Position numbers and translations under genes: made by a program
The notes under the pieces: generated by a model
Seen by the model: the letters and a program-made list of their open reading frames with translations, nothing else
Told to the model about the DNA's origin: nothing
Database searches by the model: none
NCBI GenBank assembly: GCA_016215105.1
Contig: JACRLJ010000117.1
Span: 1-36,571 of the forward strand
Direction of reading: 5' to 3'
Source: Candidatus Hydrogenedentota bacterium
Lineage (GTDB): Bacteria > Hydrogenedentota > Hydrogenedentia > Hydrogenedentales > SLHB01
DNA: 36,571 nt
Shown: piece after piece, positions 662 through 14,746 of the stretch
Layout of the letters: every line of letters starts with the position of its first letter
How positions within the stretch are numbered: the first letter of the stretch is position 1

Positions 662-1642
662 CTATTGGAACTGCGAAAACAGCGTCGCAAACACGCGCGT
701 CACCGGGAAGTCGGTTCCGTACTTGATGAACGAAACGTGACCATCCAGGAACACCCAATTCGCGCCGCCCGGAATGTGGTTAAACCCGGCCACATCCGTG
801 CCAAACAAATCGCCGTACGTCGGAATTGTGCTCTGCGCCACCGCCGAGGCCGCCGGATTGTTGATGTCGGTGATATAGAAGCGCTCGATCCCTTCTTTCA
901 ACGCATACACCGTCCGGGCGCGGCCCGCGTCGTTGGTGTACACGAGGTCCTTACCATAGTTGTTCACGCCGGGTACCGCGCCAACCTGCTGCATCACGGT
1001 GCCAACCAAGGCGCCCACGAACCCATTGTCAAGGTACCCACCCGTAAAGAGATTCGTTGCATTGACAGTCGCATCGTTCGGGTTCGCGTTGGTATTGAGA
1101 TAATCCTGGCCCGGTTTTCCGGTCAGCGCCCACGGAAAGTACACGTACGACTCCACCGTGAACGCATAAGGGTCAATGTGTCCCAGATTGCCCTGGTCTT
1201 CCCAACGGTGGTCGGACTCCACGTGGCCTCGTCCCGCTGAAGCCGAAGGGCAGAGCAGCACGTTCGTGTCTGTAAGGTATTCGGGATAAATCGAGGGCCC
1301 GTCAACCACCCATTCGGTCGCGCCCGTTCCACCCGCCGGCGGAATCGCCGTGCTTGGGTTGTTGTGACCGCCCTTGACGTAGTTCGCGTAGGAGCGGACT
1401 CCGCCCACCTTGGTCACGTCCCAGGAAATTCGCCCGGCCGTTGGCGGAAGCTTTCCACCCTTGGATTCGTTGGCGTACAACTTCAATACCAGGCCCAGTT
1501 GCTTCAGGTTGTTCTGGCAAGAGGCGCGCCGGGCCGCTTCACGGGCGCGGGCAAGCGCCGGCAGCAAAATCGCCGCCAGAATTCCAATGATGGCGATCAC
1601 CACCAGCAGTTCAATCAATGTAAATCCACGTTTCTTCGTCAT
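662..1642 (-). CDS. Pseudopilin-type protein with N-terminal methylation motif and H-x-DG tail (DUF1559-like)
   Basis: The 326-residue protein starts with a short basic leader and the class III signal [19 protein letters not shown]. Prepilin peptidase would cut between Gly6 and Phe7, leaving Glu at position +5. A long amphipathic helix (to about residue 45) is followed by a globular passenger domain. Near the C-terminus is [13 protein letters not shown], the prepilin-associated H-x9-DG signature, here with ten residues between His and Asp. Such proteins are expected at the cell surface or in type II secretion-like filaments. A TTG nine codons upstream would also be in frame, but the ATG at 1642 puts the basic leader directly before the signal. 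Its passenger domain reappears, without the pilin helix, at the end of the divergent sigma-factor protein. Prepilin identity is very secure; the specific role is not known. Confidence 0.93.
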
Positions 1643-1903
1643 TGTTCCATTTCTCTCTAGTTTTGACAACGGTTTGATTCAAAAACACATGCTCACTCAG
1701 CGAGAGAGCCCCGACATCGATCAACGGAGAGATAGACGAACGGCGTCCGGACGATGCCGATACCGCCATTCCGCCGCTCCCGAGCCCAAGATGGGATCAT
1801 GCGCTACCTCCTTTCTACCTGACCATTCGGTTGACTGATATGGGATGGCCCAACGAGAACAAACCCGATCCTCGGGCCAAGATCACCCGGCAAGAGCGCC
1901 GCC

Positions 1904-2311: not shown

Positions 2312-2366
2312 TCACCGGGGTGTCCATCCCTCACCCGGACAAGACACTATCGAAGGAGTCGGTGCC

Positions 2367-5300
2367 ATGATCTTCGGGAAGAAATGGAGTTCCGCCGCCG
2401 AAAAGGCGCCGGACAACGAAATCGTCGGGCGCGTCCTCTCGGGCGAACGCGAAGCCTTTAACACCTTGGTGCTGCGTTGGCTGCCATCCGCTCACGCCTG
2501 CGCCTACTCCCACCTCGCCAACCACACCGAGGCCGAAGACGCCACGCAGGAGGCCTTTCTCAAAGCCTATCAGTTACTCGACCAACTCCGCGACGCCGAC
2601 AAGTTCGGGGCTTGGCTCATCGCCATTGTCCGCAACGCCTGCAACAGTCTGACCAGACGCCGCAACCGCGAGACTCCGCTCACTCCCGAACACGAGGCGC
2701 AAGCCGCGGCGCCGGACATGGGACGGCTCGAAATGCAGCAACACGTTCGCGATCAGGTCCTGCGCCTCGAAGAAGCAGACCGTGAAGTGCTCATGCTCCA
2801 TTACTTCACCGGAAAGACCACTCCCGAAATTGGCGAGCTTCTGGGAATCTCCGCCGAGGCCGTTCGTAAGCGCTTGCAGCGGGCACGCGAGAGCTTGGGG
2901 GAACGGCTCGTCGCGGAGGCGTCCGAAGTCCTCCAACCGCAATGCAGCAACGAAGAGCGCTCTCGAACGATCGTCGCCGCGATTGCAGCCTGCCGGGTGA
3001 CGTGGAAGCCTCGACCACCGGCACGGGCAGCATCCGCACGGGCGGCAGGCCGCCCCCGCGGCACGGGGATACTGGCAAACAAGTCGATCGCCGGCGCCGG
3101 ACTCGCTGCCGCAGCGTTACTCATCGCGATATCCGTCATGATGAAGTCTCGGACATCGGACTCGCCCGCCGCACAAGCTCCCGAATCCCGAACGCCGATC
3201 ACGCGGACCGCATTGCAAGCCGCACAAGTCACGCCCACCTCCACGCCATCCAAGACGCAAGAGTTGTCACACTCTTCCGCGGCGGCTCCATCGGTCGCGT
3301 CCACTCAGGAAAGCGGCCCCACTCGAATCGTCCGCGGAGTGATACGCGATATGGACAACCAACCCATCTCCGGCGCACGAATCGATCTCGCGCATTCCAA
3401 TGAACAACCCTCCAAATCCACCCCCGCAAGACCGAAGATCACCTCGGATTCGAGCGGCCTGTTCTCCATCGAGTGGACCGATACTATCCAAGAGCTAAAC
3501 GTCTTTGCGCCGGGGGTCGAACACGCCCCGATTCTGTGCAGCGCCATGCCGCTCGACGGCGACGTCGAGATTCACACGCAGTTGAACAGGCCCCCGAGCG
3601 ACCGCGGCGTCCGATCGCGGTTCCCCGGGGCGGCCGTTGTGACCGTGACCGACGGCGCCGGCGCGCCGCTGAAGGGAGTCACGGTACGGCGCGGGGATTC
3701 GAAATCGGACGCAATTGCGACGACAGGTCCGACGGGAACCTTCCGCCTAGACCCCTCGCTTTCTGAAGGGCTCCTCCATTTTGAGACCGACGGCTACGCG
3801 CCGGCCATTGTTCAGGTTCGGCCCGGACTGCCGATCAGCGTGGTTATGCGGCGTCCCGGCGCGTTGCGCGTGCGTGTGACAAAGAGCGGGGCGCCTGTGC
3901 CTGGCGCAAGCGTCCGCGTCGTCGGTGGAGAGCTTGCCCACGAACGTGAAGTGCGCGCCAACGATGAAGGCATTGCGGCGATTGATAATCTTCCCGCGCC
4001 GCTGGCCTATTCCGTCGGACTTTCGGCGCACGCTGACGCCTACTCGGTGAACGGCAGCACCACCGTACTCGAGGGCAAAACTGTGGAATGCGAACTGCGT
4101 GTGATGGATCGCTATCCAGCCACCGTGCACGGCACGATCATTGATGCGGACGGTAAGCCTGTCACCGGAGCGGAATTGATGATCCAACAAGCGGACTCCC
4201 CGGCGAGTCCACGTCAAGTGCGCACTAAGGAGGACGGATCGTACGAGGCGGGGCTCACCAACGGGACGAACCGGATTGCTTTGAATATGGCTTCATTGAA
4301 ACGGCTTGTTCCGGACCAGGCGCCGGACGAGGCCTCTTTTGAGGCAAAAATCGAAGATGGCGCCGCAGACGTACGGCGCGATTTCAACCTGAAACGTATC
4401 AACCCGCACGTAACATTTCGTATAGTGGACGCGGGCGGAAATCCCGTAACCAAGGCCGAGATTACCATCAACCCTGGCCTGCAAGGAGACAATACCCAAT
4501 TCATCGTGACGGCTCCAGACGGTTCGTTCACGACGGCCCGCGAGCGCGCTAATGCGATTCGCGCGTTCGACACTGAGCATAGCCGCCTGGGATGTGCGTC
4601 TGTCCCGCCAGGCGCTGATACCGTCGAGGTGCGTCTGGACGGCGCTATCGGCCAGATTCGCGCAAACGTGCAAGACGAGTCCGGAAAAGGCGTCCCGTCA
4701 ATTCGAATCTATGCCAATGGAATTCCAGGCCCGGACTCTTCAGCGCCCGCCCAAGCGGAGTTCGGCTCATTGCAGGTTCGTGGCTTCTCAGACAGCCGCG
4801 GACAAGTGGTCCTTGATCGACTGCCGGCCGGGGCCTCTTACGTGTTGAGCGCGTGGGATGAAGACTACGCTGTGCTGTCGTTTACCCCTTCCGGACAAAT
4901 CGTGGCCAGCGCAAACCCGGAAACGGTGACCATTACTTTGGGCGCCGCGAACGCCGTGGTCAGCGGCCGCGTGGTAGACGAGTCCAGCGCTGGCCTGGCA
5001 AACGCCACCGTCTTCTTCAACAGCACTGACCACAGTCAGATGTTCTACCGGCAAGTATTTACGGACGAAATCGGGCGCTTCTCCGCGGGCCTGTGCCCCG
5101 GCGGCTATACCGTCAGCGCCTTGCGCGCCACGCCCAACGCCATTCAATCTGAGCCTATCGTGGTTTCCGCGCCCTCGAGCAATATCGTGCTCACGGCGCC
5201 GCGAGGCGAACGCGCTCAAGCGCCCAGCAGTCCGGAATTGGAACAGGCCAGTATGGCGCTCAAGCAGGTCGGTTTAGTCTTCAAGATGTTTGCCAATGAG

Positions 5301-5825
5301 CACAAGGACACGTTTCCCTCGCTGAGTCGTACCTTCGGAGTGTTTAGCCCCGATCTCAGTCAGATCTACCCCGAGTATCTGAGCGATGCGGCAATCGTTG
5401 ATCGCCTGGGCGGAAAACTTGACGTAAAGACCGCCTATCTGGGATATCTCATGAACGACGAAGAAATGGGCATGCGATTCCTCGACGCCTATGAGCAACT
5501 CGGCCCGGAAGGACTCGACGATCCGGACACGCTCCGCCAGTACTCCGAATCGCTTCCCGGAAGCGAACTCGAGCGCGCGATCCTTCCGCTCAAGGAAGGT
5601 ATCGAGCGGTTTGTCATCACCGACATCAACAATCCCGCCGGGGCGTCTCAGGCCCAGTCCTCCATTCCCATCACCTGGGAGATGCCCGGCGCCCTCCGGC
5701 CCGACGGCGGCTACGTCTTGTACATGGACGGACACATCGAATGGGTCCCCTACCCCGGAAAGTTCCCCATGACCGAGCAATTCATTAACCGCTTGGCCGC
5801 GTTGTCGAGTACCAAGCCGAAATAG
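2367..5825 (+). CDS. Membrane-anchored ECF sigma factor with carboxypeptidase-regulatory-like repeats and C-terminal pseudopilin passenger domain
   Basis: The protein has 1152 residues from the ATG at 2367, which follows AAGGAG by eight bases; a GTG 26 codons upstream lies inside the palindrome and is unlikely. Residues ~15-100 are sigma-70 region 2 and ~130-185 region 4, including the helix-turn-helix around TTPEIGELLGISAEAVRKRL. Residues ~242-260 form one transmembrane segment. A Ser/Thr/Pro-rich linker follows, then about seven beta-sandwich repeats between ~320 and 930 of the kind VxGxVxDxxGxPVxGAxV, like carboxypeptidase-regulatory domains. From ~957 to the end the sequence matches the neighbouring pseudopilin without its N-terminal helix, including [17 protein letters not shown] and YMDGH near the C-terminus. 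The sigma domains would be cytoplasmic and the rest outside the membrane. An envelope-sensing transcription factor is the natural inference; the signal and target promoters are unknown. Confidence 0.9.
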   Translation: MIFGKKWSSAAEKAPDNEIVGRVLSGEREAFNTLVLRWLPSAHACAYSHLANHTEAEDATQEAFLKAYQLLDQLRDADKFGAWLIAIVRNACNSLTRRRNRETPLTPEHEAQAAAPDMGRLEMQQHVRDQVLRLEEADREVLMLHYFTGKTTPEIGELLGISAEAVRKRLQRARESLGERLVAEASEVLQPQCSNEERSRTIVAAIAACRVTWKPRPPARAASARAAGRPRGTGILANKSIAGAGLAAAALLIAISVMMKSRTSDSPAAQAPESRTPITRTALQAAQVTPTSTPSKTQELSHSSAAAPSVASTQESGPTRIVRGVIRDMDNQPISGARIDLAHSNEQPSKSTPARPKITSDSSGLFSIEWTDTIQELNVFAPGVEHAPILCSAMPLDGDVEIHTQLNRPPSDRGVRSRFPGAAVVTVTDGAGAPLKGVTVRRGDSKSDAIATTGPTGTFRLDPSLSEGLLHFETDGYAPAIVQVRPGLPISVVMRRPGALRVRVTKSGAPVPGASVRVVGGELAHEREVRANDEGIAAIDNLPAPLAYSVGLSAHADAYSVNGSTTVLEGKTVECELRVMDRYPATVHGTIIDADGKPVTGAELMIQQADSPASPRQVRTKEDGSYEAGLTNGTNRIALNMASLKRLVPDQAPDEASFEAKIEDGAADVRRDFNLKRINPHVTFRIVDAGGNPVTKAEITINPGLQGDNTQFIVTAPDGSFTTARERANAIRAFDTEHSRLGCASVPPGADTVEVRLDGAIGQIRANVQDESGKGVPSIRIYANGIPGPDSSAPAQAEFGSLQVRGFSDSRGQVVLDRLPAGASYVLSAWDEDYAVLSFTPSGQIVASANPETVTITLGAANAVVSGRVVDESSAGLANATVFFNSTDHSQMFYRQVFTDEIGRFSAGLCPGGYTVSALRATPNAIQSEPIVVSAPSSNIVLTAPRGERAQAPSSPELEQASMALKQVGLVFKMFANEHKDTFPSLSRTFGVFSPDLSQIYPEYLSDAAIVDRLGGKLDVKTAYLGYLMNDEEMGMRFLDAYEQLGPEGLDDPDTLRQYSESLPGSELERAILPLKEGIERFVITDINNPAGASQAQSSIPITWEMPGALRPDGGYVLYMDGHIEWVPYPGKFPMTEQFINRLAALSSTKPK

Positions 5826-13004: not shown

Positions 13005-13421
13005 ATGAGCATGAATTCAACAACATCAGAATACCTGTTGCTGTTCCGGGGGGCGCAGTGGGATAAGGAACTTTCCCCGGCGGAAATTCAGAAGGTCATG
13101 AGCCAATGGACCGCATGGTACGAACGGCTGCTCCAGCAGGGCAAGCTCAAAGGCGGTCAGCCCCTCGTACATGAAGGCAGAATCGTTTCCGGGAAGAAAG
13201 GACGCACCGTGGCCGATGGTCCTTTCGCCGAATCCAAGGAAGCTATCGGAGGCTACTTCCTGCTTACCGTCCACGATTTCGACACTGCTTTGGAGATTGC
13301 GAAAGAGTGCCCCGCGCTGGAATACGGATTGACGGTGGAGGTCAGGCCGGTAGCCGAGTGCTGCCCTACCATGCAGCGCGCGAGCGAGTACCTTGCCAAG
13401 GCATCGGCGGCGACGGTGTAA
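13005..13421 (+). CDS. YCII/DGPF-domain protein, partner of the ECF42 sigma factor
   Basis: The 138-residue protein is a YCII-related ferredoxin-like domain with the hallmark VADGPFAESKEAIGGYFLL (residues ~66-85), the DGPF signature that names the family. The C-terminal half continues with ECPALEYGLTVEVRPV. Genes of this family are almost always beside ECF42 sigma factors, as here, where the sigma gene starts two bases after this stop. The biochemical role is not established; proposals include a small-molecule binding or enzymatic sensor. The ATG follows AAAGGTGAG. It opens the co-oriented cluster that runs to about 26.1 kb. Confidence 0.93.
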   Translation: MSMNSTTSEYLLLFRGAQWDKELSPAEIQKVMSQWTAWYERLLQQGKLKGGQPLVHEGRIVSGKKGRTVADGPFAESKEAIGGYFLLTVHDFDTALEIAKECPALEYGLTVEVRPVAECCPTMQRASEYLAKASAATV

Positions 13422-13423
13422 GC

Positions 13424-14746
13424 GTGAGCCTGCTAGAAGAACAGAGCCCGATACCCGCAACGGGCGAGGCGTCCCGGTTGGCGGAACACCTGTTTCGGCA
13501 TGAAGCCGGGAAGCTGGTTTCCGTCCTGACGAAGATGTTCGGGACCGAGCGGCTGCAGTTAGCGGAAGACGTGGTTCAGGAAGCATTGATTCGCGCGATG
13601 CAGACGTGGCCTTACTACGGCATCCCGAGCAATCCCGCTGCATGGATTACGCAAACAGCGAAGAATCTCGCGCTGGATGTGATCCGCCGGGAAAAGCGGT
13701 TCCGCGAAAAGGAACCGGGAATTACCGCGTCGGTCGAGCGGCAGTTGGAGAACGCGAACGGCAGCGAGCCGCTCTTCTTCGACGACGAGATTAAGGACGA
13801 CCGGCTGCGAATGATGTTTGCTTGTTGCCACCCGCTGATTCCGGAGGATGCGCGGGTGGCCTTGGCGCTCAAGACACTCTGCGGACTCAATACCGCCGAA
13901 ATTGCGAATGCATTTCTGATGACCGAGGCCGCGGTCGCAAAACGATTGACGCGAGCCCGGCAGCGAATTCGCGAGTTGCGCGTACCTTTCGAAAGTCCCC
14001 TGGGCGCCGAGCTGGCGTCCCGCTTGGATGGCGTGGAGAAAACGCTCTACCTGCTCTTCAACGAAGGCTACAAAGCGTCCAGTGGTGAGAACCTGATCCG
14101 GGCAGAACTTTGTCACGAAGCGATCGGCCTTGGGACTCTCCTGGTCAACCACTCGGCAGGCAACCGGCCCCGCACGCACGCGCTGCTCGCGCTCATGTTA
14201 CTGAACGCCGCGCGTTTGCCGGGGCGTGTTGACGGAGAAGGACAGATACTGCGTCTCATGGACCAGGATCGTTTGAGTTGGGACCAGGGAATGATTAGCC
14301 GCGGCATGGTTCACCTTGGCCAATCGGCGTCCGGAGAAGAACTAAGCGAATACCATCTCCAGGCGGGCATCGCCGCGTGCCATTGCGCCGCGAGCGATTT
14401 CGAGTCAACGGACTGGAGCCAGATTCTTGCCTTGTATGACCAACTGGTGGAACTCGACGATTCCCCCGTCATCGCTCTTAATCGCGCCGTCGCCGTTGCG
14501 AACGTGAACGGTGCCAAGGCCGGGATTGAATGTGTCGAGACTATTCCGGGCCGGGAGCGCTTGGACAGGTATTACCTGCTCTATGCGGTTCTGGGCGAGT
14601 TCGAGGCGCAACTCGATCATACCGAGGCCGCAGCCAGTCATTTTCGTAAAGCGCTCCAATTCACCGCAGTGAAATCGGAGCATTCGTATCTGTTGAAGAG
14701 ACTGCGGGCGTGCGAAGAGCTGAGTCTGTGCGTGGCCGCTCCCTGA
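13424..14746 (+). CDS. ECF sigma factor, ECF42 type, with TPR-like C-terminal extension
   Basis: The 440-residue protein has sigma-70 region 2 at ~17-100 (LAEDVVQEALIRAMQTWPYYG, then NPAAWITQTAKNLALDVIRR) and region 4 at ~125-185 (helix-turn-helix GLNTAEIANAFLMTEAAVAKRL). Residues ~190-440 are an all-helical extension with YLLFNEGYKASSG and SHFRKALQFT, the DUF6596/TPR-like part that sets ECF42 apart from short ECF factors. In this group the extension, rather than an anti-sigma factor, is thought to control activity. The GTG at 13424 lies two bases after the upstream stop, so translation is probably coupled. A frame start inside the DGPF gene is not supported. Likely targets are DGPF and neighbouring promoters. 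Confidence 0.94.
   Translation: MSLLEEQSPIPATGEASRLAEHLFRHEAGKLVSVLTKMFGTERLQLAEDVVQEALIRAMQTWPYYGIPSNPAAWITQTAKNLALDVIRREKRFREKEPGITASVERQLENANGSEPLFFDDEIKDDRLRMMFACCHPLIPEDARVALALKTLCGLNTAEIANAFLMTEAAVAKRLTRARQRIRELRVPFESPLGAELASRLDGVEKTLYLLFNEGYKASSGENLIRAELCHEAIGLGTLLVNHSAGNRPRTHALLALMLLNAARLPGRVDGEGQILRLMDQDRLSWDQGMISRGMVHLGQSASGEELSEYHLQAGIAACHCAASDFESTDWSQILALYDQLVELDDSPVIALNRAVAVANVNGAKAGIECVETIPGRERLDRYYLLYAVLGEFEAQLDHTEAAASHFRKALQFTAVKSEHSYLLKRLRACEELSLCVAAP

Follow-up and report, generated by a model that had tools for sequence, protein, structure and literature searches.

A membrane-spanning ECF sigma factor with a pilin-type C-terminal domain, a probable sigma/anti-sigma hybrid of Hydrogenedentota

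INTRODUCTION

Extracytoplasmic function (ECF) sigma factors are a main type of bacterial signaling system, and few of those that carry long extensions have a known sensor. IutY of Pseudomonas putida is a sigma/anti-sigma hybrid that stays membrane-bound until Prc and RseP release it (PMC5411451). In the ECF48, ECF52, and ECF53 groups (e.g., SCO4117 of Streptomyces coelicolor), an ECF sigma factor continues into a membrane helix followed by an extracellular domain, and release by proteolysis is expected (PMC8999054). The RsgI anti-sigma factors of Clostridium thermocellum carry varied extracellular sensor domains and are cut by RseP (PMC12203970). Here, we analyze P0001, a protein encoded in a 36,571-nucleotide stretch of DNA of a Candidatus Hydrogenedentota bacterium, a member of an uncultured phylum (contig JACRLJ010000117.1 of assembly GCA_016215105.1), the whole of which is called the window below. 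In P0001, the two domains of an ECF sigma factor are connected through a membrane helix and a long stalk to a C-terminal domain of the pilin type, and we argue that the protein is probably a sigma/anti-sigma hybrid with a pilin-derived sensor.

RESULTS

P0001 is encoded by a single intact open reading frame (ORF) of 1152 codons with an ATG start (Table 1). An earlier, sequence-only reading of the locus had described a fusion of sigma regions 2 and 4, a transmembrane (TM) helix, about seven CarboxypepD_reg domains, and a pseudopilin-like end in one protein, and ORF analysis, Pfam, hydropathy, and BLASTP confirmed it. Both sigma regions scored above the Pfam cut-offs and regions 1 and 3 were absent, which corresponds to the ECF-type set, and the TIGR02937 model (sigma70-ECF) matched with 88.5 bits for a cut-off of 42.9. 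By its domain content P0001 belongs to the ECF sigma factors, and a role in directing transcription from specific promoters is predicted. Hydropathy analysis revealed one hydrophobic helix, at about residues 235 to 253. As the 30 residues ahead of it include seven Lys or Arg and no Asp or Glu, the N-terminal sigma part is predicted to be cytoplasmic and the remainder to lie outside. The AlphaFold2 (AF2) model of the N-terminal part spans residues 1 to 298.

BLASTP aligned the P0001 tail with the neighboring pseudopilin, P0002, at E 1e-15 (43% over 76 residues, plus a second block of 36 residues). A hidden Markov model built from 29 true pilins detected P0001 at E 3e-37 and reported none of 400 shuffled sequences, and a comparison of five sigma-linked tails with pilins using hhalign gave a probability of 100 (E 8.5e-52, 35% identity, 182 columns). 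The latter result is decisive, showing that the C-terminal domain can be aligned to pseudopilin passenger domains in a profile comparison. On its own the P0001 tail matched neither the Pfam DUF1559 model (PF07596) nor the NCBIfam H-X9-DG model (TIGR04294) at E 0.01, because an Arg residue occupies the expected His position of the motif; among the 78 members of the aligned tail family, 63 matched the H-X9-DG model and 47 the DUF1559 model. AF2 modeled the tail (residues 945 to 1152) with a pLDDT of 92.7 and a pTM of 0.88. A fold search of the PDB with this model returned nothing better than chance, with no match at E 0.001, and a sequence search of the PDB with the tail family matched no solved structure. 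The relationship of the P0001 tail to pilins thus rests on sequence profiles and not on structure, and on that evidence the domain is homologous to the H-X9-DG/DUF1559 pseudopilins. A prepilin-type leader and an N-methylation motif were looked for in P0001 and not found, and the tail sits behind some 700 residues of stalk, not behind a pilin N-terminal helix.

A sigma-plus-pseudopilin arrangement was found in related genomes both as single-ORF fusions and as two-gene forms. Phylum-wide counts cover 68 Hydrogenedentota genomes, at least 24 of which harbor a fused or split link between a sigma factor and a pilin-type domain; genome-wide counts come from genome searches. The named relatives, according to a contig scan with two short patterns, all belong to metagenome-assembled genomes of Candidatus Hydrogenedentota. 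A second single chain with the order sigma, TM helix, CarboxypepD repeats, and tail is encoded at locus L143 in genome G049, from another family, and aligns with P0001 from end to end (27%, 1190 columns, E 8e-75). Shorter single-ORF fusions of sigma, TM helix, and tail are present in G001 (one), G026 (one), and G028 (two), and one further such fusion, in G029, is interrupted by a single TAG.

In genome G021, the gene directly behind one for an ECF sigma factor, which it overlaps (ATGA), encodes an anti-sigma-like protein with a TM helix, CarboxypepD repeats, and a P0001-type tail. Residues 324 to 1146 of P0001 are co-linear with the ectodomain of that protein (30% identity, 847 columns, E 5e-84). 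Its zf-HC2 match is under the Pfam cut-off (19.7 versus 22.2 bits), and the corresponding anti-sigma partner in G006 has a zf-HC2 finger, of the zinc-binding anti-sigma (ZAS) type, above it. Short proteins made of an anti-sigma domain and a tail exceeded the cut-off in 9 of 10 cases tested, bringing the overall figure to 10 of 13 tail-bearing anti-sigma proteins; those of G021 fall below. Two-gene relatives with an N-terminal zf-HC2 finger and a gene directly behind that of an ECF sigma factor qualify as ZAS anti-sigma factors. Across the phylum, we counted 22 ECF sigma/anti-sigma gene pairs whose anti-sigma protein ends in the pilin-type domain. The two genes overlap or abut in 20 of them, with ATGA, GTGA, TGATG, or TAATG junctions that are typical of co-translated partners.

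The short anti-sigma-tail proteins are perhaps more striking than P0001 itself. A model built for them (A5) gave full-length matches, starting at model positions 1 to 11, in more than 20 genomes, and true pilins align to it only from about position 85 to 95, i.e., from the membrane helix onward. In the short forms, the anti-sigma domain thus stands in the place of the prepilin leader, with the pilin helix as the anchor. No prepilin-type leader motif was present in the six short-form proteins examined. At loci L197 to L216 (e.g., L198:1402-2487 and L201:1498-2667), the N-terminal anti-sigma domain, often a zinc finger, leads straight into a pilin helix and its passenger domain, and a prepilin cleavage motif is absent. 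Membrane proteins of about 780 residues are encoded downstream of a sigma/anti-sigma-pilin pair at L083:4526-6862, L082:1717-4053, and L179:2378-4720. The most conserved pilin motif stands alone in them within unrelated sequence, like a grafted short pilin peptide.

The presence of two-gene forms in relatives could suggest that P0001 results from the merging of two genes by an assembly or sequencing error, a refutation that the sequence-only reading had itself envisaged. We rejected this explanation and regard it as extremely improbable. The G+C content at third codon positions (GC3) ranges from 0.65 to 0.76 across all parts of the frame, a coding-like and continuous composition, and the L143 protein aligns over its entire length. 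Four other genomes have fused ORFs of their own, and the source genome encodes about 15 paralogues of the sigma-TM-CarboxypepD type. Furthermore, the two-gene relatives carry an anti-sigma domain of about 70 residues that is absent from P0001, so that no such domain is left over for a frame error to join.

Phylogenies indicated that the tail has been combined with different partners. In the sigma tree, the tail-linked sigma factors fall in four places, and for the fused sigma factors alone the starred (well-supported) branches imply a minimum of three changes. In the tail tree, the tails of the window, G049, G006, G021, G022, and G023 group together in a nine-row set (98*), which includes three tails from other proteins. 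As tails group while sigma factors scatter, the sensor end appears to have been kept and the sigma end to differ. The pilin-passenger tail also forms the end of BlaR1/M56 receptors at three sites. Receptors of the BlaR1 M56 type with this domain at the end or elsewhere in the chain were noted at L073:2911-5211, L151:3171-11258, and L157; at L073, a BlaI-like repressor ORF (2568-2978) lies just upstream of the receptor gene. The simplest view of a domain at the tip of three different signaling scaffolds is that it receives input, and we infer this function for the pilin-derived domain of P0001. It is also found in secreted multi-domain proteins, some with three or four tandem copies. Proteins of about 900 to 1200 residues with three or four tandem pilin-passenger domains and no pilin leader are encoded at L074, L079, L146, L147, L166, and L075, and most have a predicted N-terminal hydrophobic segment.

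These distributions bear on what the outer part of P0001 might do. Conceivably it serves only to anchor the sigma factor to the membrane or the wall, regulation taking place inside the cell or through transcription of the gene. In many paralogues the stalk is present but the pilin tail is not, and CarboxypepD_reg domains commonly act as spacers. However, the co-linear ectodomain on an anti-sigma-like protein and the re-attachment of similar tails, both to BlaR1 receptors and to more than one sigma lineage, argue for a signaling role, which makes a purely structural anchor improbable. It is quite possible, and we stop just short of calling it probable, that the pilin-derived domain binds a small molecule or polymer and has no present role in filaments. 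Its position corresponds to that of the ligand-binding ectodomain of BlaR1-type receptors, it is similarly placed on anti-sigma-like proteins, it recurs in many secreted multi-domain proteins, and DUF1559 bears the Pfam name SBP_bac_10, for solute binding. DUF1559 genes have been described as a solute-binding family, and some are salt- or cold-responsive in Rhodopirellula baltica (PMC2754498). Nevertheless, solute binding is a family name rather than a demonstrated function, with no known ligand, and neither sequence nor fold searches found a similar solved structure.

The sequence-only reading had proposed that the tail matches the neighboring pseudopilin and mimics or competes with it. The homology to P0002 is real, as the BLASTP match attests, but it is not special, since P0002 ranks only about 23rd among the matches to the P0001 tail within the genome. 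The closest relatives of that tail are the tails of other sigma or anti-sigma proteins, not pilins. The idea of mimicry or competition found no support: pilin genes are not constant neighbors of P0001 relatives, the tail groups with sigma-linked tails, and the long stalk replaces the pilin helix. P0002 was likewise set aside as a specific partner of P0001, which neither the tail ranking, nor the neighborhoods of the relatives, nor the tail tree supports; homologous as it is, it has no special claim to that role.

A broader proposal, and the one nearest to the sequence-only reading, is that of a filament or secretion checkpoint, in which direct contact of the pilin-derived domain with pilins or pseudopilins would convey the state of the pilin pool or of filament assembly. 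There are precedents, as PilS senses PilA within the membrane (PMC6058289) and truncated PilA sets off proteolysis of the anti-sigma factor MucA (PMC3684759). The replacement of the prepilin leader by an anti-sigma domain in the short two-gene forms speaks for it, as do the additional pilin-like genes within or beside some of these operons and the one prepilin peptidase and many PilC/GspF proteins of the source genome. For P0001, however, a long stalk holds the domain off the membrane without the pilin N-terminal helix, such that it cannot pack as a pilin does. The low rank of P0002, the inconstant pilin neighbors, and the occurrence of the domain in many non-pilin proteins, including those with tandem copies, also speak against a checkpoint, which we consider rather unlikely. 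As a hypothesis, sensing of filament assembly or secretion suits the short two-gene forms better than P0001, because their membrane helix aligns with the pilin helix. One elaboration, slightly more doubtful still, is that type IV filament subunits became regulators in Hydrogenedentota: in the two-gene forms, the anti-sigma domain would take the place of the prepilin leader on a pilin that is complete in other respects and yield an uncleavable membrane pilin. This protein would hold the ECF sigma factor and join or compete with pilins, so that their pool or assembly is read into transcription, and P0001 would be a fused, stalked descendant.

For P0001, we favor the reading of an IutY-like sigma/anti-sigma hybrid in which the sigma factor is tethered, the sensor derives from a pilin, and release occurs by intramembrane proteolysis; we hold this to be probable, by a moderate measure. 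Established from the sequence are the domain order, the homology of the tail to pilins, the co-linearity of the ectodomain with that of an anti-sigma-like protein whose gene follows an ECF sigma gene, several attachments of tails to distinct sigma lineages, and their presence at the tips of BlaR1-type receptors. P0001 combines a sigma factor, a TM helix, and an extracytoplasmic part in one chain, and its outer part shares homology with the corresponding part of a free anti-sigma-like protein, that of G021. Sigma regions 2 and 4 would lie in the cytoplasm, tethered to the membrane and presumably inactive. The stalk and the terminal pilin-derived domain would sense something beyond the inner membrane, and sensing would lead to cleavage outside and then within the membrane (regulated intramembrane proteolysis). 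The sigma part thus freed would direct RNA polymerase. The IutY precedent, current thinking on ECF48, ECF52, and ECF53, and the M50 site-2 protease homologues present in the source genome lead us to propose a tethered sigma factor, a sensing tail, and a release that is, by analogy, probably proteolytic. That P0001 acts as a sensor without a separate anti-sigma factor, as initially suggested, is also probable, given the same ectodomain on anti-sigma-like proteins and the same tail on BlaR1-type receptors.

Several observations weigh against this proposal. P0001 has no recognizable cytoplasmic anti-sigma segment: a Pfam search found neither zf-HC2 nor any other match in residues 178 to 235, and the approximately 55 residues between region 4 and the TM helix form only a short helix modeled by AF2 with low confidence. 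This helix (residues 195 to 212) occupies the place of the anti-sigma domain of the split relatives and is possibly a remnant or a replacement of it. Without a recognizable anti-sigma segment, P0001 might work in its tethered state, or its activity might be constitutive. The roughly 15 paralogues in the source genome lack the pilin tail, indicating that it is not needed for the general design. Finally, no protease site was identified in P0001, and the proposal is built on sequence and predicted models.

The source genome has 47 sigma70_r2 matches and 52 matches to H-X9-DG-type domains at E 0.001, and the latter are matched in each of the family's 25 genomes. Other unusual fused sigma factors in the genome combine the sigma part with DUF3738 (L095:4047-5444), with a protein kinase and a FliG_C match (L089:4951-6588), or with a secretin/TonB STN domain (L100:3810-6137). 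In the window, an array of 9-bp repeats, CCGTCCACT, lies directly behind the P0001 gene (5843-5989). This repeat has 17 matches in the genome, at several other places, and the reversed control pattern has none. A second sigma-like gene, of an ECF42-like type with DUF6596, is located at 13307-14746, and a short ORF ahead of it (13005-13421) encodes a candidate for the YCII-related partner usual for this type.

Table 1. Sequence features of the P0001 locus (window positions; residue numbers are those of P0001)
Feature	Position	Strand	Evidence
P0002, divergent H-X9-DG pseudopilin	662..1669	-	Pfam N_methyl and DUF1559, NCBIfam TIGR04294
Sigma70-like promoter match near P0002	2063-2035	-	Sequence match
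Likely ribosome binding site, GAAGGAG	2352..2358	+	8 nt before the ATG of P0001; inferred from sequence
P0001, whole gene (sigma, TM helix, CarboxypepD, pilin-type domain)	2367..5825	+	ORF and Pfam
Sigma region 2, residues 34-101	2466..2669	+	Pfam PF04542 Sigma70_r2, E 1.1e-13; confident AF2 model
Sigma region 4, residues 128-177	2748..2897	+	Pfam PF08281 Sigma70_r4_2, E 2.2e-12; AF2
Juxtamembrane helix, residues 195-212	2949..3002	+	AF2 helix with falling confidence; alignment with fused paralogues
Single TM helix, residues ~235-259	3069..3143	+	Hydropathy, positive-inside charge; low-confidence AF2 helix 244-259
Stalk, ~7 CarboxypepD_reg (transthyretin-like) domains, residues 321-944	3327..5198	+	Pfam PF13620, 7 stretches, E 8e-40
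C-terminal pilin-passenger (H-X9-DG/DUF1559-type) domain, residues 945-1152	5199..5822	+	BLASTP, hhalign, AF2

DISCUSSION

Our analysis ties a filament-subunit domain to ECF signaling, in fused and two-gene forms and in several sigma lineages, and thereby provides a concrete candidate sensor module. It suggests that proteins of the pilus type became sensors of a widespread gene-control system in Hydrogenedentota. Should the signal be the status of pilins or filaments, this would represent a new means by which cells monitor their surface machinery. Should it be a ligand, this would be the first function for DUF1559, which is among the largest unexplained families of planctomycete-like bacteria. 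We found no description of a sigma or anti-sigma factor with a pilin-type domain in the open literature, subscription papers, including two key ones on planctomycete ECF sigma factors, being beyond the scope of that search.

Like IutY, which belongs to group ECF243, P0001 is a single chain in which an ECF sigma factor is followed by one membrane helix and a regulatory part outside the cytoplasm, and in both cases related systems have free anti-sigma counterparts. The two proteins differ in that the periplasmic part of IutY is of the TonB-receptor signaling type and senses aerobactin through IutA, whereas that of P0001 consists of CarboxypepD repeats and a pilin-type domain, with proteolysis proposed by analogy. 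P0001 shares with ECF48, ECF52, and ECF53 the fusion of an ECF sigma factor to a membrane helix and an extracellular part. In contrast, those groups have a zinc-finger anti-sigma domain within the chain, and SCO4117 also has a carbohydrate-binding domain; P0001 has no zinc finger and ends in the pilin-type domain. The two-gene relatives follow the same membrane anti-sigma logic as RsgI, although RsgI acts on SigI and not on an ECF sigma factor, senses polysaccharides, and has no pilin-type domain. In its long membrane-spanning extension, P0001, like many paralogues in the source genome, resembles the ECF sigma factors with long C-terminal extensions known from Planctomycetes and related bacteria. 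It is related to the H-X9-DG/DUF1559 pseudopilins by its homologous C-terminal domain but differs from them in having sigma domains and in lacking the leader, the N-methylation motif, and the His of the signature motif. The plan of a sigma/anti-sigma hybrid is therefore already known; the pilin-type sensor is unexpected, apparently undescribed, and part of a larger, phylum-wide set.

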